Assembly: GCF_030268045.1 (NCBI RefSeq)
Contig: NZ_BSDC01000001.1
Coordinates: 1,550,001 to 1,614,000 of the forward strand
Reading direction: 5' to 3'
Length of the DNA: 64,000 bases
Source: Geothrix edaphica
Lineage (GTDB): Bacteria > Acidobacteriota > Holophagae > Holophagales > Holophagaceae
Below, one piece after another: positions 5,658-49,309 of this stretch. The notes beneath the pieces are model-generated. The model ran no database searches. It was not told the origin of the DNA and saw only the letters and a list, made by a program, of their open reading frames with translations. The translations under genes and the position numbers were made by a program. Position 1 is the stretch's first letter, and each line of letters opens with the position of its first letter.

Positions 5658-5924
5658 GGATGCCTCCGGATCCTCCAGTATCGCCCGGGAAGTGGGCGGG
5701 TGTCGCCAGGGGCGACGCTCCGTCCCGCTGGGGACCGGAGCCGGTCCGCCCCCGGGACGATGCGCTTCACCCAGCTGAAAGCCGCTTCACCCCGAAACCA
5801 TGGCCGGGGGAGGCCCTCCTCCGCATGTTGTTGGGCGTTCCCCCGCCCGTCGGTTCTGCCGCTCCGGGCTCCCCTTCACCCGGTGCCGGGGCTGCGCCCC
5901 CACCGCCGTCCTACCGGAGGCAAC

Positions 5925-6494
5925 ATGAACCGCATCTCGACTTCCCTTGTCGTGGCCGTGGCGGCCTTCGCCGGTCTGGCCCTCCATGCGGAGGACTTCC
6001 GGCCGCTGATGAAGACCTCTCTGGCCACCTGGCCGGCGAAGCAGCACATCGGCGTGATCTGCGACTACGCCGCCAGCCGCGACGAAGTGATGGCCTTGGC
6101 CAGGGCCGCGGGCGAAGGCGCCTTCATCACCGTGGCCGACACGCGCCGCGCCGAGCACGCGACCTCCGCCGCCCACCTCATCGCCAACCAGGGCACCGAC
6201 TACCTCGTGCTCCTGCCGGGCGACCGGGTGTTCCGGGATGGGTCCTTCGGGGCCACCCAGGCGATCCTGCAGCTCGGGAAGCGGGGGGTGCCCGCCATCG
6301 GCACCACGCCCGTGGCCCTGAAGCAGGGAGCCGTGTTCAGCGTGGGCGACGGCACGAACGGCCAGCTGCTCGTGACCGACCGCCTCATCGGCACCGTGGA
6401 CGTGATCCTGCCCAGCCGGGCCATGACCGAGAAAGGCGCGCTGGTGCTCCGGGAAACGGGCATGGCCTCCATCGCCGTCATGCCGGCCGAATGA
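5925..6494 (+). CDS. Exported protein of unknown function
   Basis: 189 residues with a classical signal peptide (MNRISTS, hydrophobic core, predicted cleavage after LHA near residue 22), so it is likely periplasmic. The mature part has alternating beta/alpha character (HIGVICDYA, TDYLVLLPGD, GVPAIGTTPVALKQG), faintly like a periplasmic-binding-protein half domain, but I do not recognise the family. Start ATG with CGGAGG at 5915-5920. A perfect 16-bp hairpin follows the stop. The LytTR pair downstream is convergent, so it is a single-gene unit. Confidence 0.75.
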   Translation: MNRISTSLVVAVAAFAGLALHAEDFRPLMKTSLATWPAKQHIGVICDYAASRDEVMALARAAGEGAFITVADTRRAEHATSAAHLIANQGTDYLVLLPGDRVFRDGSFGATQAILQLGKRGVPAIGTTPVALKQGAVFSVGDGTNGQLLVTDRLIGTVDVILPSRAMTEKGALVLRETGMASIAVMPAE

Positions 6495-9130: not shown

Positions 9131-9625
9131 TCAGGACTGCTTGGCCAGCAGCCGGGCGCGCGTGTACGGGATCAGCCCGCCGGCATCCATGATGCCCTTG
9201 CGCGCGGCGGGCAGCTTGACCTGCTCGTAGGCCTTGCCCGTGGTCTTGTTGAGCACCTGGTCCGCGGTGATCTCCAGGTCATCACCCTCGCCGGCCTCGA
9301 GGCCGGGACAGATCACGACCTGGAGTCCCAGGTTGATGCTGTTCTGGAGGAAGATGCGGGAGATGCTCTTGGCCACCACGGCCACGTCGTGGCCCTTCAG
9401 GGTGGAGCAGGCCTGCTCGCGGCTGGAGCCGCAGCCGAAGTTCTCACCGCCCACGATGATGGAGCCGGACGCGAAGGCCCTGGCCTTGAGCTGGGCGTTG
9501 AACTCGGTCCGGTCGAAGAAGGCGAACTGGGGGGTTTCAGTGGGCAGCACCGTGGCCATGAAGCGGCCGGGATAGATGTCATCGGTGCTGATGTCGTTGC
9601 CGAGCTTGATGATGACCTTGGACAT
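9131..9625 (-). CDS. leuD: LeuD-like dehydratase small subunit (3-isopropylmalate dehydratase family)
   Basis: Swivelling small subunit of an aconitase-superfamily dehydratase, 164 residues. This short form is shared by archaeal-type LeuD, homoaconitase and 2,3-dimethylmalate dehydratase small subunits; E. coli LeuD is about 200. Motifs: GNDISTDDIYPGRF at the N terminus and GGENFGCGSSREQA for substrate-anion binding. It starts 3 nt after the stop of the large subunit. The leucine label is by family only. The operon also holds a CoA transferase and an HMG-CoA-lyase-like enzyme, so the substrate may be citramalate/citraconate or another methylmalate. Confidence 0.85.
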   Translation of the reverse strand: MSKVIIKLGNDISTDDIYPGRFMATVLPTETPQFAFFDRTEFNAQLKARAFASGSIIVGGENFGCGSSREQACSTLKGHDVAVVAKSISRIFLQNSINLGLQVVICPGLEAGEGDDLEITADQVLNKTTGKAYEQVKLPAARKGIMDAGGLIPYTRARLLAKQS

Positions 9626-9628
9626 GGT

Positions 9629-10915
9629 TCAGCCCTTTCTCGGATCGGTGATGACGCCGGTGATCGCCGAGGCCGCGGCCACCACGGGGCTGCAGAGGTA
9701 GACTTCGCCCGTGGGATTGCCCATGCGGCCCTTGAAGTTGCGGTTGGTGGTGCTGAGGGCCTTCTCGTGGTCGCCCAGGGCGCCTTCGTGGACGCCCAGG
9801 CAGGGCCCGCAGCCGGAGTTCATCACCACGGCGCCGGCCGCCATGAGGTCGTGGACATAGCCCTTGTCCAGGGCCTGCGCGAAGATCTTGCTCGAGGCCG
9901 GGAACACCAGCATGCGCGTGCCCTGGGCCACCTTCTTGCCCCGCAGGATGTCGGCGGCGGCGGCCAGGTCGTCCAGCCGCCCGTTGGTGCAGCTGCCGAT
10001 GACGATCTGCTGGATCCGCGTGCCCACCACGTCGCCGATGGGCTTCACGTTGTCCACCATGTGAGGGCAGGCGATCTGAGGCACCAGCCTGGTCACGTCG
10101 ATCTCCACCGTCTGGACGTAGCTGGCATCCAGGTCGGGCGTGACGCAGGGGATCGGATCGGTGACTCCTGCCTCCTCCCGCAGGTAGCGCAGGGTCTCCG
10201 CGTCCCCGGGCACGATGCCCGAGGTGGCGCCGGCCTCCACGCTCATGTTGCAGATGGCGATGCGGCCGCTGGTGCTCATCTTCCGGATGGTCTCGCCGTG
10301 GAACTCCAGCACCTTGTAGTTGGCGCCCTGGGCCGTGAGCTTCCCGATGAGGTGGAGGATGAGGTCCTTGGGGCCAACGAAGGGCGGGAACTCGCCGTGG
10401 ACCACCACCTTGATGGTGGCGGGCACCTCGATGTTGACGGCGATGCCCAGGCTCCACACCGAGGCCATCTCCGTGGCGCCGATGCCGAAGCTGAAGGCGC
10501 CCATGGCCCCATGGCTGGTGGTGTGGGAGTCGGTGCCCACCACCACATAGCCCGGCCGGACGTAGCCGTACTCCGGCAGGATCTGGTGGCAGATGCCGCC
10601 CACATCGCCGCGGATGTCGTGGAACTTGGTGATGCCGTGGTCGGCCACGAAGCCGCGGATCTTCTTCTGGTTGGTGGCCGTCTTGGGCGATTCCGCCGGC
10701 ACGCGGTGATCGAAGATGATGGCGATCCGGGAGGGATCCCAGACCTTGGCGCTCAGCCCGGTGCCTTCGTACACCTCGTGGAACTGGTTGATCACCAGCG
10801 CAGCGTTCTCGTGGGACATGGCGAGGTCCACCCGCGGCTCGACCACATCCCCGACCTTCACGGACGGCAGGCCCGCCGCGCGGGCCAGAATCTTCTCGAC
10901 GACCGTCATGCCCAT
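9629..10915 (-). CDS. leuC: LeuC-like dehydratase large subunit (3-isopropylmalate dehydratase family)
   Basis: Fe-S large subunit of the dehydratase whose small subunit follows immediately. 428 residues, the short LeuC/homoaconitase/DmdA class. Cluster-binding cysteines are in GSCTNGR and GCGPCLG; GTDSHTTSHGAMG is the substrate-region signature. The ATG at 10915 is chosen over a GTG at 10936 because GAGGAGG lies just upstream of it and the GTG falls inside the CoA-transferase frame. It begins 10 nt after that gene's stop. Dehydration/hydration chemistry is secure; the physiological substrate is not. Confidence 0.87.
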   Translation of the reverse strand: MGMTVVEKILARAAGLPSVKVGDVVEPRVDLAMSHENAALVINQFHEVYEGTGLSAKVWDPSRIAIIFDHRVPAESPKTATNQKKIRGFVADHGITKFHDIRGDVGGICHQILPEYGYVRPGYVVVGTDSHTTSHGAMGAFSFGIGATEMASVWSLGIAVNIEVPATIKVVVHGEFPPFVGPKDLILHLIGKLTAQGANYKVLEFHGETIRKMSTSGRIAICNMSVEAGATSGIVPGDAETLRYLREEAGVTDPIPCVTPDLDASYVQTVEIDVTRLVPQIACPHMVDNVKPIGDVVGTRIQQIVIGSCTNGRLDDLAAAADILRGKKVAQGTRMLVFPASSKIFAQALDKGYVHDLMAAGAVVMNSGCGPCLGVHEGALGDHEKALSTTNRNFKGRMGNPTGEVYLCSPVVAAASAITGVITDPRKG

Positions 10916-18393: not shown

Positions 18394-20115
18394 CTACACG
18401 ATGGCCAGCAAACCCACCAGCCAGAAGCTCAGGTCCACGCTCAGCTCGAAGCGGTGTTTCCCGGCGGTGAACCGCTCGTGGAACAGCCAGAGGTACAGCA
18501 TCGGATAGGCCGCGCAGACCACCAGGACCAGGGCCACAGCCAGGGGGTGCCCATGCTGGCGGTTGTCGAAGGTGAGCCAGAGGGTGCCGGCGAGCAGCGT
18601 CCCAAGGAGCCCCACCAGCACCGCCTTGGTGGCCGACTTGCCCATGAGGATCGGCAGGGTCTCCTTCCCCACGATCTGGTCGTTCTGCATGTCCCGGATC
18701 TCGTAGATCACCGTGCGGACGAAGGCCAGGACGCCCACGAGGAAGATGGCCGCGAACGCGCGGAGGTCCCAGATCCGGCCCTCCTGCCAGACGGGCATGA
18801 TGACGGCCACCGTGGCCAGGGCCAGGGCCACCACCACGTCCTTGGAACCCGGGATGTTCCGCAGGCTGAAGGTGCGCCCGCCCAGTTGGAAGCGCCGCTT
18901 GTAGCCAGCGCCCACCACGGAGGCGCCCGCCGCCACGGCCAGGGCCTTAAGGCCCAGCGTGGCCGAGAGTCCCAGGGTGAGGGCCAGGGCCACCAGGCCC
19001 GCGCCCAGCAGCACCTTGCGGTTGCGCTCCAGGAACCGCGCCCGGGCCGGGCCCTTGGCGCCGACCCCCAGCGGGTCCAGGAAGGGGGTCAGCAGGTACA
19101 TGGCCAGCACGTAGGTTCCCGCCAGGAGCGGGTAGCGCCAGCCCAGGGGCAGGCCCAGCCACTTGTGCACGCCGAGGGTCATGAAGGCCGCCCCCGTGGC
19201 CAGCAGCGACGAGCTGCCGAAGGCCGCCTGGAGGAAGCTGCGCCAGCGGCTGGGACCGTCGCCCAGCTGCTCCAGCACGTCCACCACCTCATCCACCAGC
19301 CAGGTGGGGGTGGAGGCGCCGGCCAGCACGCCCACGGTCTCGCGGCCGGTGAACGCCCGGAGATCCAGTTCCGCGGCGGTTTCGACGTACTGTACGGGCT
19401 TGCCATAGTGATGCGCCAGCTCGGCCAGGTGCTTGGTGTTGCTGGAGGCCTTGCCGCCCACGACGATGACCGTGTCGACCGTCCGGGCCAGCTCCCGAGC
19501 CTCATCCTGGCGCATCCAGGTGTCCTCGCAGATGGTGTTCTCGAACACGGCATCCACGGCGCGGGTCCGGATGTAGTCGGTGATGGTGTGGTAGTCCTTC
19601 ACCGTGAAAGTGGTCTGGGCCACCACCAGCACCTTCTTGAGCTGCTCGTCCGTCAGGGCCTCGGCCTCGGCCATGTTCGACACGATGAGGCTGCCGCTGT
19701 CCGCGAAGCTGCGGTGGGCCACACTCTCTGCATGGCCATGGCTGCCCAGGATCACCGTGAAGTAGCCCTTGGGGCTCCACTTCTTGATCTTGTGGTGGAC
19801 CTTGGCCACCTCGGGACAGGTGGCGTTGACGATCTTCAGCTCGCCCTTGGCCTGGCGCTCCTTGAGGCCCCGCAGGTCCTGGATGGGGATGCCGTGGGCG
19901 CGGATCACCACCGTGCCCGCCTGCACCTTGTCCGGCGCCTCCGCCACGGCCACACCCCGCCTGCCGATGAGCTCGAGCGCCTGGGGATTGTGGATGAGCG
20001 GACCCAGCGTCTGCACGGTGCGGCCATCGTTGCGCACCGAGGCCTCCAGCACCGCGTCCATGGCGCGCTTCACGCCCCAACAGAAACCGGCGGTCTTGGC
20101 GACGATCACTTTCAT
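18394..20115 (-). CDS. ispH: IspH (HMBPP reductase) fused to a UbiA-type prenyltransferase domain
   Basis: Two-domain protein, 573 residues; ordinary IspH is about 280-320. Residues 1-285 are IspH, the last MEP-pathway enzyme, which makes IPP and DMAPP. All three [4Fe-4S] cysteines are present: C12 (AGFCWGVK), C100 (NATCPEV) and C196 (TICEDTW), as is the TxxR/K-type region. Residues 300-573 are polytopic (about 8 helices) and resemble the UbiA superfamily. The second Asp-rich motif is clear (IRDMQNDQIVGKETLP, 473-488); the first is weakly conserved (FLDPLG near 345 with ARARFLERNR). The reading frame is continuous, with no sign of assembly error. An IscR-like site covers its promoter. Confidence 0.9.
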   Translation of the reverse strand: MKVIVAKTAGFCWGVKRAMDAVLEASVRNDGRTVQTLGPLIHNPQALELIGRRGVAVAEAPDKVQAGTVVIRAHGIPIQDLRGLKERQAKGELKIVNATCPEVAKVHHKIKKWSPKGYFTVILGSHGHAESVAHRSFADSGSLIVSNMAEAEALTDEQLKKVLVVAQTTFTVKDYHTITDYIRTRAVDAVFENTICEDTWMRQDEARELARTVDTVIVVGGKASSNTKHLAELAHHYGKPVQYVETAAELDLRAFTGRETVGVLAGASTPTWLVDEVVDVLEQLGDGPSRWRSFLQAAFGSSSLLATGAAFMTLGVHKWLGLPLGWRYPLLAGTYVLAMYLLTPFLDPLGVGAKGPARARFLERNRKVLLGAGLVALALTLGLSATLGLKALAVAAGASVVGAGYKRRFQLGGRTFSLRNIPGSKDVVVALALATVAVIMPVWQEGRIWDLRAFAAIFLVGVLAFVRTVIYEIRDMQNDQIVGKETLPILMGKSATKAVLVGLLGTLLAGTLWLTFDNRQHGHPLAVALVLVVCAAYPMLYLWLFHERFTAGKHRFELSVDLSFWLVGLLAIV

Positions 20116-45923: not shown

Positions 45924-46757
45924 ATGGAATTCACAGTCCAGGCTCCCGCCAAGCTCAACCGCTTCCTCGCCGTGCTCGGCCGGCGGGCGGATGGCTTCCA
46001 CGAGCTGGAGCTGGTCACCACCGTGCTGGAAGGTGTGTTGGACCTGACGGATACGCTGGAGGGCGAACCTGCCTCCGCGCTGTCCCTCGCCATCTCCGGT
46101 CCCACCGGTGCGGGTCTCGTGGCCGACGCATCCAACCTGGTGATCAAGGCCTGGCGTCTGCTGGAGGAGGCCGCGAAACGGCCCCTGCCCGCGCACCTGC
46201 ACCTGGAGAAGCGCATCCCCCACGGCGCGGGTCTCGGTGGCGGCAGCAGCGATGCCGCGGCGGCCCTGCGTCTGGGCAACCGGATGTTCGACCTGGGCCT
46301 GGGCGAGGACAAGCTGCTGGGCCTGGCGGCCCGTCTGGGCAGCGATGTGCCCTTGTTCCTCCTGGGCGGGACCGTGCTGGGGCTGGGCCGCGGCGAGCGG
46401 GTGTTCCCCCTCCGGCCGGTGCCCCTGGAACCCATCCTGCTCGTCCATCCCGGCCTGCACTTGAGCACGCCCAGCGTGTACCGCGCCCTCCAGGACGTGG
46501 GCTACCCCTTCCCCGAGGCCCTGGCCTCCCAGCCCGGAGGCGCCGCGCCACCCTGGCGCAACGACCTCACGGGCGCGGCGCTGTGGGTGTGCCCGCCGCT
46601 GGCCGAGGTGCGCGACGCCCTGCGCGACAGCGGCGGCGAGCCCCTGCTCTGCGGCTCGGGGAGTTGCTGGGCGGCGCGCTACGCTTCGGTCCAGGCCCGG
46701 GACATGGCGGCGGAACAGCTGTCCGGTCACTCTGGATGGGGCGTCTGGCACGTGTAA
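45924..46757 (+). CDS. ispE: 4-diphosphocytidyl-2-C-methyl-D-erythritol kinase
   Basis: GHMP kinase of the MEP isoprenoid pathway, 277 residues. PAKLNRFLAVLGRRADGFHELE is the substrate-binding opening; PHGAGLGGGSSDAAAAL is the ATP-binding loop; SGSGS-like LLCGSGSCWAARY closes the active site. The ATG at 45924 is preferred over a TTG six codons upstream. The flavodoxin-UbiA fusion follows 33 nt later on the same strand. Genome-wide the pathway also needs IspH, which in this window is a UbiA fusion. Confidence 0.95.
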   Translation: MEFTVQAPAKLNRFLAVLGRRADGFHELELVTTVLEGVLDLTDTLEGEPASALSLAISGPTGAGLVADASNLVIKAWRLLEEAAKRPLPAHLHLEKRIPHGAGLGGGSSDAAAALRLGNRMFDLGLGEDKLLGLAARLGSDVPLFLLGGTVLGLGRGERVFPLRPVPLEPILLVHPGLHLSTPSVYRALQDVGYPFPEALASQPGGAAPPWRNDLTGAALWVCPPLAEVRDALRDSGGEPLLCGSGSCWAARYASVQARDMAAEQLSGHSGWGVWHV

Positions 46758-46790
46758 GATGTCCGTTCTCGACCTGGGCGGAGGGCGTGC

Positions 46791-48329
46791 ATGGACGATT
46801 CCAGGGAAGGCCGGCCCCGCAAGATCCTGGTGATCCTGGGCCACCCCCGCCGGGAGAGCTTCTGCGGCGCCCTGGCCGGGGCCTACCTCGAGGGCGCCGG
46901 AAGCGCGGGCCACCAGGCCCGGCGGCTGGATCTGGCGGACCTCGCCTTCGACCCGGATGTCCGGATGCCCTCGCCCCGGGACCAGGGCCTGGAACCGGAC
47001 CTGGCCCGGGCGCAGGCACTGATCCTCTGGGCGGATCATCTGGTCTTCGTCTACCCCGCCTGGTGGGGCACCCTGCCCGCCCTGCTCAAGGGATTCCTCG
47101 ATCGGGTGCTCACCCCAGGCTTCGCCTTCGCAGCGGACGAGGCGGACCCCTCGGCCTGGGCCAAGCTTCTGAAGGGCCGCTCGGCCCACCTGCTGGTGAC
47201 CATGGACACCCCGCCCTGGGTGTACCGGTTCGTCTACCGCCAGCCCGGCCACCAGGCCATGCGCCGGGCGACGCTGGGCTTCTGCGGCATCGGGCCCACC
47301 TTCATCTCCACCTTCGGGCCCGTGCTGTCCTCTTCGCCGGAGCAGCGGGCCGGGTGGCTGGAGGGTGTCCGGAGGGAGCCGCTCCGGCTCGCGGACCGGC
47401 TTCGCCGGGACGCAGTCCGGCGGCGTGCCGGGGCCTGGCTGAGGCTGCTCCGGCTGCAGTTCTACCCCATGGCCTGGGTGGCTTACACCATCGGCGCACT
47501 GCTGGCCTGGCGCCACGGGGGGACCTTCTCGCCGCAGGTCTACTGGCTCGGCTACCTCTGCCTCTTCCTGATGGAGGCGCTGACGGTCCTCAGCAACGAG
47601 TGGTTCGATCAGGGCACGGACCGGCTCAACCATCATGCAGGCCCCTTCAACGGCGGCAGCCGGGTGCTGGTCGAGGGGGAACTGGCCCCCGGCAGTGTCC
47701 GGCGGGCGATGCTCGGCCTGACCCTGCTGCTGGGCCTGGCCCTGGCGGTGCTCGCCGCCCTGCCCGGCCCCGCCGGACCCGGCCCGATGGCCATGCTCGC
47801 CCTGGCGGTGCTGGCGGTGGGCTATACCGCCCCGCCCCTGAAGCTCAGCTACCGCGGCCTGGGCGAGCTCGATGTGGGTCTCACCCATAGCTTCGCGGCG
47901 ATCCTCTGCGGCGGGCTCCTCCAGTCCGGCGTCTGGCGGGACCCGCACCTCTGGCTCATCGGGGCGCCGCTCTTCTTCGCCACCGTCGCGGCCATCACCC
48001 TGTCGGCCCTGCCGGACCACGAGGCCGACCGGATGGTGGCCAAGCGGACCCTGGCGGTCCTCCTGGGCCGCCGGGGGGCGGCGCTGACGGCCCTGGGTTT
48101 CGTGGCCGTCGCCGCCATCTGCGGTGTGGTCTGGCAGCAGCGTGGCCTCTTCGGCGGGCGGAGCGGACTCGCCGTCTTCCTGGCCATCCCCCACGGCCTC
48201 CTGCTGGTCCGGGCCATCTGGCGCTACCTGCGCCGGGGCGCGCCCTGCGAGCGGATCAACGGGATCATGGTCCTGGCCCTGACCTACCTCCTGTGGTTCG
48301 GGATCATCCCCCTGGCCGGCCTGTCTTGA
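46791..48329 (+). CDS. NAD(P)H-quinone oxidoreductase (flavodoxin fold) fused to a UbiA prenyltransferase
   Basis: 512 residues. Residues 10-200 are a flavodoxin-like NQO/KefF-type domain: KILVILGHPRRESFCGAL (FMN/FAD phosphate site) and VYPAWWGTLPALLKGFLDRV with the usual aromatic stretch. Residues about 215-512 are a polytopic UbiA/MenA-type prenyltransferase: first Asp motif NEWFDQGTDRLN (269-280) and GPFNGGSRVL, second motif LPDHEADRMVAKRTL (407-421). Both motifs are intact, so prenyl transfer should be active. The product may be a quinone that the N-terminal domain reduces; this is inference. The ribosome site CGGAGGG is good. Confidence 0.92.
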   Translation: MDDSREGRPRKILVILGHPRRESFCGALAGAYLEGAGSAGHQARRLDLADLAFDPDVRMPSPRDQGLEPDLARAQALILWADHLVFVYPAWWGTLPALLKGFLDRVLTPGFAFAADEADPSAWAKLLKGRSAHLLVTMDTPPWVYRFVYRQPGHQAMRRATLGFCGIGPTFISTFGPVLSSSPEQRAGWLEGVRREPLRLADRLRRDAVRRRAGAWLRLLRLQFYPMAWVAYTIGALLAWRHGGTFSPQVYWLGYLCLFLMEALTVLSNEWFDQGTDRLNHHAGPFNGGSRVLVEGELAPGSVRRAMLGLTLLLGLALAVLAALPGPAGPGPMAMLALAVLAVGYTAPPLKLSYRGLGELDVGLTHSFAAILCGGLLQSGVWRDPHLWLIGAPLFFATVAAITLSALPDHEADRMVAKRTLAVLLGRRGAALTALGFVAVAAICGVVWQQRGLFGGRSGLAVFLAIPHGLLLVRAIWRYLRRGAPCERINGIMVLALTYLLWFGIIPLAGLS

Positions 48330-48388
48330 GCACCTCCCTGTGCCCACAGAGATCGAACCCGGGCATGATGGTCTCTCCGGAGGTATTC

Positions 48389-49309
48389 ATGTCCGCACCA
48401 GCCCTCCGCATCCGCGGCCTGCGCAAAGCCTTCCCCAAGGTGGTCGCCGTGGCCGGGGTGGATCTGGAAGTGGCCCGGGGCGAGGTCTTCGGCCTGCTGG
48501 GCCCCAACGGGGCGGGCAAGACCACGACGCTGGAGATCATCGAGGGTCTGACCGAGGCCGACGGCGGGGACATCGAGATCCTGGGCCTGACCTGGGCGAA
48601 GCATGGACAGGAGATCCGCGCCCGCATCGGCGTGCAGCTCCAGAGCACCAGCCTCTTCAACAAGATCACGCCCCGGGAGTCGCTCGATCTCTACGGCAGC
48701 TACTACCCGAAGCGGCGGAGCACGGAGGAGCTGCTGGACCTGGTGCAGCTCCAGGAGAAGGCCGACGCCTACCACATCACCCTCAGCGGCGGGCAGCAGC
48801 AGCGGCTGGCCCTGGCGCTGGCCCTGGTCAACGATCCCGAGCTGGTGTTCCTCGATGAGCCCACCACGGGCCTCGATCCCCAGGCCCGGCGCAGCCTCTG
48901 GGACGTGGTGCGCCGCATGAAGGGCGAAGGCCGGACTGTCATGCTCACCACCCACTACATGGACGAGGCGGAGGCCCTCTGCGACCGGCTGGCCATCATG
49001 GACCACGGAAAGGTCATCGCCACGGGAACCCCGGCCTCGCTCATCGCGGACCTGGCCATTCCCAGCGTGGTGGAGCTGACGTTTGAAGGGGCGGCACCGG
49101 ATCCGGCGGCCTTCTCCGCGCGGCTGGGCCAGGCCGTGGAGTGCCGTGCGGACCTCTGGGAGATCCCCACGCCCGATCCCAAGGCGCTCCTTCCGCGGCT
49201 CCTGGAAGCCGCCGAAGCTGCGGCGGTGCCCTTCCAGCAGGTGCATGTGCGCCGGGCCACCCTCGAAGACGTGTTCCTGCACCGCACCGGGCGCAGCCTG
49301 AGGGAGTAG
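48389..49309 (+). CDS. ABC transporter ATP-binding protein (ABC-2 type exporter)
   Basis: 306 residues. Walker A GPNGAGKTTT, Q loop GVQLQSTSLF, signature LSGGQQQR, Walker B LVFLDEPTTGLD and H loop TTHYMDEAE are intact. A C-terminal extension of about 80 residues is typical of DrrA/NodI-type exporters. The ATG at 48389 follows GGAGGT; the upstream in-frame extension overlaps the fusion gene's 3' end. The permease starts 33 nt later. Confidence 0.94.
   Translation: MSAPALRIRGLRKAFPKVVAVAGVDLEVARGEVFGLLGPNGAGKTTTLEIIEGLTEADGGDIEILGLTWAKHGQEIRARIGVQLQSTSLFNKITPRESLDLYGSYYPKRRSTEELLDLVQLQEKADAYHITLSGGQQQRLALALALVNDPELVFLDEPTTGLDPQARRSLWDVVRRMKGEGRTVMLTTHYMDEAEALCDRLAIMDHGKVIATGTPASLIADLAIPSVVELTFEGAAPDPAAFSARLGQAVECRADLWEIPTPDPKALLPRLLEAAEAAAVPFQQVHVRRATLEDVFLHRTGRSLRE

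Follow-up and report, generated by a model that had tools for sequence, protein, structure and literature searches.

A conserved and apparently undescribed protein family joining an NQO-type oxidoreductase domain to a UbiA prenyltransferase in bacteria and haloarchaea

The acceptors of UbiA enzymes are electron-rich, either phenols or hydroquinones, and quinones are not prenylated. Short, soluble quinones are the usual substrates of NQO-type domains; in NQO1 the catalytic pair is Tyr155 and His161. UBIAD1, the vertebrate MK-4 synthase, did not synthesize MK-4 when DTT was omitted, from which its authors inferred that menadione is reduced beforehand (PMC4398444). The Ubi-297 or ebo-cluster UbiA takes an unusual aromatic acceptor and is encoded in a conserved operon (PMC9235831). 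Here we describe a gene that unites both kinds of domain, found in a window of 64,000 nucleotides of the Geothrix edaphica genome (the whole stretch of DNA analysed). The preliminary description of this gene had allowed that the architecture might already be well documented; we found no published description of an NQO-UbiA fusion in the open-access literature. The fused family is real, conserved and apparently undescribed.

The gene is a single uninterrupted open reading frame at 46791-48329 (+), which encodes a 512-aa protein with an NQO (Flavodoxin_2) domain followed by a UbiA domain. Its features are as follows.

46791-48329, + strand: fusion gene; open reading frame with full-length homologues in other genomes
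46780-46785, + strand: GGAGGG, Shine-Dalgarno-like, read directly, 5 nt 5' of the ATG
46821-47300, + strand: Flavodoxin_2/NQO-type domain, aa 11-170 (Pfam PF02525, AlphaFold2 model, Foldseek)
46842-46859, + strand: presumed flavin phosphate loop H18-P-R-x-x-S23 (invariance; alignment with 3lcm, 4r81 and 4gi5)
47055-47105, + strand: isoalloxazine-site motif P89-A-W-W-G-T-L-P-A-L-L-K-G-F-L-D-R105 (invariance; NQO2 alignment)
47337-47450, + strand: long helix, aa 183-220, connecting NQO core and membrane domain (AlphaFold2 model)
47451-47471, + strand: family signature R221-L-Q-F-Y-P-M227 at the start of TM1 (invariant in 37 fusions)
47487-48236, + strand: UbiA prenyltransferase domain, aa 233-482 (Pfam PF01040; PDB match UBIAD1 8djk)
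47595-47621, + strand: first Asp motif N269-x3-D273-x3-D277 (N269, D273 and D277 invariant in 37 fusions)
47652-47663, + strand: GGSR motif, aa 288-291 (invariant in 37 fusions)
48015-48029, + strand: second Asp motif D409-x3-D413 (invariant; aligned with UBIAD1 D236/D240)

Both domain assignments clear their curated Pfam cut-offs: Flavodoxin_2 (PF02525, aa 11-170) scored 126.4 bits (E 1.5e-36) against 27, and UbiA (PF01040, aa 233-482) scored 78.2 bits (E 7.9e-22) against 34.2. Both Asp-rich motifs are invariant among 37 homologues. The order of domains given in the preliminary description is borne out. In the AlphaFold2 model (mean pLDDT 87.5, pTM 0.77), residues 11-175 adopt an alpha/beta fold and a long helix of residues 183-220 connects the NQO core with the first membrane helix. 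The solved proteins nearest to the NQO half by sequence were Smu.1420 (3lcm/4f8y, 2.9e-36), NQO2 and NQO1, and a Foldseek search with the NQO half of the model likewise placed 3lcm, NQO2 and NQO1 at the top; of the earlier label "NQO/KefF-like", the first part stands and the second is loose. For the UbiA half, a profile search against PDB chains returned UBIAD1 8djk as the best match (E 3.5e-19).

Active-site conservation was read from an alignment of 37 fusions sharing 45-80% identity. In the H18-P-R-x-x-S23 segment, which we take from knowledge of the NQO family to be the flavin phosphate loop, H18, R20 and S23 are unchanged throughout. The same holds on the isoalloxazine side for P89, W91, W92, G93, P96, A97, K100, G101, D104 and R105, in a motif that aligns with NQO2 PLYWFSVPAILKGWMDR, and for T137, D139 and P141. 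The region matching Tyr155/His161 of NQO1 has diverged (MDTPPWVYRFVYRQPGH); in the sequence alignment the pair is not recognisable and has no sure counterpart. Judged by their sequences, both domains look catalytically intact, and the conserved flavin-site loops argue against the loss of flavin binding that the preliminary description had considered.

The domain-architecture search that had been suggested for NQO-UbiA fusions recovered full-length examples in many phyla. In a scan of genome contigs with the UbiA domain, a sharp break separated close relatives (39-83% identity) from generic UbiA proteins near 30%, and nearly all of the close relatives had an NQO domain in frame with UbiA; it was missing from three Holophagaceae loci (L082-L084) and from a Euryarchaeota MAG (L114). 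Bacterial carriers include Halomonas, Thioalkalivibrio, Thiobacillus, Aromatoleum, Lysobacter and Polaromonas, together with MAGs of Gemmatimonadota, Planctomycetota and Bacteroidota, and Halovivax is an archaeal one; many of the carriers with a name are halophilic or alkaliphilic. Among sampled genomes, the fusion was present in 14 of 195 from the haloarchaeal class, in 10 of 90 from the genus Halomonas and in 5 of 369 from the class that includes Thioalkalivibrio; the Roseinatronobacter copy lies on a 613-kb plasmid. Searches of viral and phage collections yielded no relatives. The fusion is a widespread and apparently horizontally spread family, not a Geothrix peculiarity. Variants of the arrangement also occur: a MAG labelled Woesearchaeota encodes NQO and UbiA as overlapping separate genes, an unfused counterpart (L126:3145-4675, +); in Vreelandella rituensis (L094:929-3855) the NQO part contains a stop and an insertion of more than 1 kb separates the two domains; and the UbiA-only relative in the Euryarchaeota MAG (L114:2999-6897) is divergently oriented to a LuxE-LuxC pair.

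That gene calling or assembly had merged two adjacent genes is a general possibility for which we found nothing further, and the recurrence of the same unbroken frame across many independent genomes and phyla rules it out, leaving this explanation a negligible probability. Because stop-free full-length homologues recur and both halves are under purifying selection, the fusion is neither a chance product nor an artefact. Among Geothrix fusions, dN/dS of the two halves was 0.20-0.33 and 0.17-0.28, and the UbiA-only genes gave 0.27-0.41, a moderate and somewhat weaker constraint.

Separate maximum-likelihood trees of the UbiA and NQO domains grouped the same 60 fusions into one clade (support 99/97 and 99/93, respectively), and the two halves are inherited as a unit. 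Since a single clade appears in each tree, the simplest reading of these phylogenies is that one fusion event probably took place and was followed by horizontal spread. The fusion clade of the UbiA tree also includes the UbiA-only Holophagaceae genes and the broken Vreelandella gene, and just outside it lie stand-alone UbiA proteins of G383 and a Euryarchaeota MAG; stand-alone NQO genes hold a like position. A sample of the phylum Acidobacteriota, to which Geothrix and the other Holophagaceae belong, yielded 11 Geothrix-group genomes with a full-length fusion, and G383 with a single fusion of a distant type (L191:7070-8662, +). The latter shares the domain order and spacing and can be aligned over 445 aa, but it is only 28% identical and falls outside the main clade on long branches in both trees, so it may be independent in origin. 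It adjoins a DUF3108 gene and a stand-alone UbiA gene (L191:8659-9459, - and 9420-10445, -), the product of which is the closest stand-alone relative of the UbiA half of the main fusion.

The three UbiA-only Holophagaceae genes nest among the Geothrix fusions (96/95), which indicates that NQO was lost there. This ability of the NQO half to disappear alone would suit a protein in which the two activities are uncoupled, the UbiA half being mainly a membrane anchor for NQO or acting on a non-quinone acceptor. We regard such an arrangement as quite unlikely, because both Asp motifs and GGSR are invariant, the UbiA half has dN/dS values as low as the NQO half, and the UbiA-only state marks UbiA as the part that is retained.

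Synteny in Geothrix reveals a slot for the fusion gene that is flanked by ispE on one side and by a pair of ABC-transporter genes on the other. The ispE stop at 46757 agrees with the preliminary description, which had put the start of the fusion 33 nt further on.

45924-46757, + strand: ispE, left border of the slot (synteny in congeners)
48386-49309, + strand: ABC transporter ATPase, right border of the slot (directly after ispE in congeners without the fusion)
L046 about 5868-6210 and L017:1447-1842: remnant of the fusion in the Geothrix genome G018, with an internal deletion

Of 36 congeners, 7 encode a full-length, stop-free fusion that is 70-80% identical to this one. Among the 30 ispE loci read, the slot contains the fusion in 8 (own genome included), a UbiA-only gene in 2 and, in 1, the remnant, a 131-aa frame in which NQO residues 1-107 run in frame into the last 15 UbiA residues; at least 14 have the ABC gene less than 400 nt after ispE, the slot being empty. 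Several near-complete congeners lack the fusion anywhere in their genomes, and from this patchy distribution we conclude that the gene is dispensable. In congener G250 the fusion occupies another place, 78 nt downstream of an mqnC-type gene (L193:6957-9670, +). A functional link with ispE was rejected on the strength of the empty slots and of the G250 copy, and the linkage is local to Holophagaceae and unconserved outside.

The 3.16-Mb genome was searched family by family, which located UbiA domains in five places, the present fusion among them. One of these, at G000:C1:1351779, is MqnP-like (TIGR01475, 281.8 bits against a cut-off of 180.8), so that the separate menA/ubiA gene the preliminary description had asked about exists elsewhere in the genome. 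A heme O synthase-like UbiA adjoins a coxB-like gene (cyoE_ctaB, 183.9 bits, just below the cut-off of 210.3), and the second UbiA fusion that had been noticed within the window, at 18394-20115 (-), consists of IspH (TIGR00216, 252 bits, cut-off 188) joined to UbiA (PF01040, 50 bits). Another UbiA gene (L004:1432-2655, -) matches no NCBIfam family and stands beside a possible DUF116-type gene. MqnC scored 425.8 bits, just below its cut-off of 428.1, and MenD was not found over its cut-off in this genome (best 55.7 of 244 bits). The enzymes of the main quinone are encoded separately from the fusion: by these profile scores the main pathway is likely futalosine-type menaquinone synthesis, served by a prenyltransferase of its own, and the presence of the MqnP-like UbiA and MqnC together with the absence of MenD makes the fusion an extra enzyme.

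Other hosts were compared by the same profiles. MenD stayed below its cut-off in 7 of 8 other fusion hosts, passing it solely in Halovivax, and MqnC reached its cut-off in none of the 8. Aromatoleum is ambiguous, with a 294-bit MqnC match within a 1011-aa frame that may be an F420-pathway CofGH-type protein. In six proteobacterial hosts (Thioalkalivibrio, three Halomonas/Vreelandella, Lysobacter and Thiobacillus) the MenD and MqnC profiles detected neither menaquinone route, and DHNA from a host pathway therefore appears unlikely as the usual acceptor.

These searches also bear on whether the fusion could be the regular prenyltransferase that the host uses for menaquinone or ubiquinone, NQO being an accessory. 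In favour of such a role, NCBIfam models give the UbiA half a weak resemblance to MenA (54 bits), and the fusion follows mqnC in one congener. However, every MenA model remains far under its cut-off (TIGR00751, 31.9 of 102 bits; PRK06080, 34.5-54.5 bits against 264-555), TIGR01475/MqnP gives 15.7 bits against 180.8, and the genome's own MqnP-like UbiA does pass this subfamily cut-off, so that the fusion is probably not the menaquinone prenyltransferase. The empty slots in at least 14 congeners, the near-complete genomes without the gene and the proteobacterial hosts without MenD and MqnC point the same way, and we reject this role as very unlikely.

Our preferred reading, to which we give an even chance, is that the protein is a self-contained bifunctional membrane enzyme whose NQO domain reduces a quinone and whose fused UbiA domain prenylates the resulting hydroquinone. 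We infer its cofactor, topology, direction of coupling, acceptor and chain length. NAD(P)H would reduce the flavin of the N-terminal NQO domain, predicted to lie on the cytoplasmic face, and the flavin would pass its electrons to a quinone to give the hydroquinone. The UbiA domain, tethered by the one long helix, would then prenylate the hydroquinone with a polyprenyl diphosphate, and the product would be a quinol or quinone with a lipid anchor, distinct from the main menaquinone of the cell. The logic would be that of a one-protein version of the vertebrate route of menadione reduction plus UBIAD1, and we favour reduction of the acceptor because UBIAD1 needs reduced menadione, the step that a fused NQO would supply. 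Against an NQO requirement, the Holophagaceae of L082-L084 keep the UbiA half without NQO and under moderate constraint, so NQO is not strictly required for the role of UbiA; in these three lineages reduction can be supplied elsewhere, or UbiA can act alone.

The preliminary description had proposed that the N-terminal domain reduces either the acceptor or the prenylated product. Acceptor reduction is the most economical mechanism, and the sequence is compatible with either. In the main rival model, NQO would act after prenylation and hold the product made by the UbiA half, or the general quinone pool of the membrane, in the reduced state as an antioxidant quinol. Gene neighbourhoods and habitats lend this some colour: the plasmid copy of Roseinatronobacter sp. 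S2 (L187:11998-13491, +) is surrounded by genes for catalase, SOD, PRC-barrel and ECF sigma proteins, a Planctomycetota MAG carries the fusion near catalase and DUF4142, and many named carriers are halophilic or alkaliphilic. Stress genes are nevertheless uncommon as a rule, catalase accounting for 2 of 139 neighbours of fusions in an uncontrolled count, and the soluble short quinones usually taken by NQO-type domains fit poorly with a prenylated substrate. We consider product reduction unlikely. The idea of a "stress island" was likewise set aside, since it is suggestive at single loci and the uncontrolled counts do not back it.

A conserved partner gene was looked for around the fusions across phyla and none was found, which suggests that the protein probably acts alone. 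Only one neighbour recurs, a small Cupin_2 gene that immediately precedes the fusion in 5 of 14 haloarchaea. These 5 belong to a single clade, and the gene possibly encodes an aromatic-ring enzyme or a sensor.

L232:6826-7248, + strand: Cupin_2 neighbour; the same in L236, L237, L238 and L239

Returning to the acceptor-reduction model, we tentatively extend it to a mobile quinone-capture enzyme of bacteria and haloarchaea, a proposal that we place on the doubtful side. Such an enzyme would reduce and then prenylate an exogenous or non-canonical quinone outside the respiratory pathway of the host, giving an undescribed lipid quinone or quinol. Soluble redox shuttles have reportedly been described for Geothrix fermentans, a possible tie to the fusion.

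Both halves correspond to known enzymes, here joined in one protein for quinone reduction and prenylation. That this protein is found in bacteria and archaea alike, and both in hosts that make menaquinone and in hosts that do not, suggests that current pathway maps lack a step by which prenylquinones are formed. The one annotated record consulted, that of Roseinatronobacter sp. S2, calls the protein only "NAD(P)H-dependent oxidoreductase", a name that gives no hint of the prenyltransferase half. The natural NQO-less versions and the Geothrix deletion remnant are ready-made comparisons, and cultured hosts (Halomonas, Thioalkalivibrio and Geothrix) make the substrate question directly testable.

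Compared with described systems, the N-terminal half shares the Flavodoxin_2 fold and the flavin-site loops with Smu.1420 (3lcm/4f8y, an NADPH:quinone oxidoreductase by its PDB title), NQO2 and NQO1, whereas these are soluble stand-alone enzymes and the NQO1 pair is not evident in the fusion. MenA and MqnP belong to the UbiA superfamily like the fusion, and MenA-like models are among its top NCBIfam matches; both are menaquinone prenyltransferases, while most of the non-Geothrix fusion hosts tested are without a menaquinone pathway. The Ubi-297 or ebo-cluster UbiA offers a precedent outside the classic quinone roles, but it stands alone and has no reductase domain. UBIAD1 has the same UbiA fold and the same two Asp motifs, yet it carries no fused reductase and works with a separate reductant of menadione. 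At the start of TM1 the fusion has RLQFYPM where UBIAD1 has RPWSFSA at the aligned place, and this dissimilarity suggests that the acceptor may differ and may not be a naphthoquinone.
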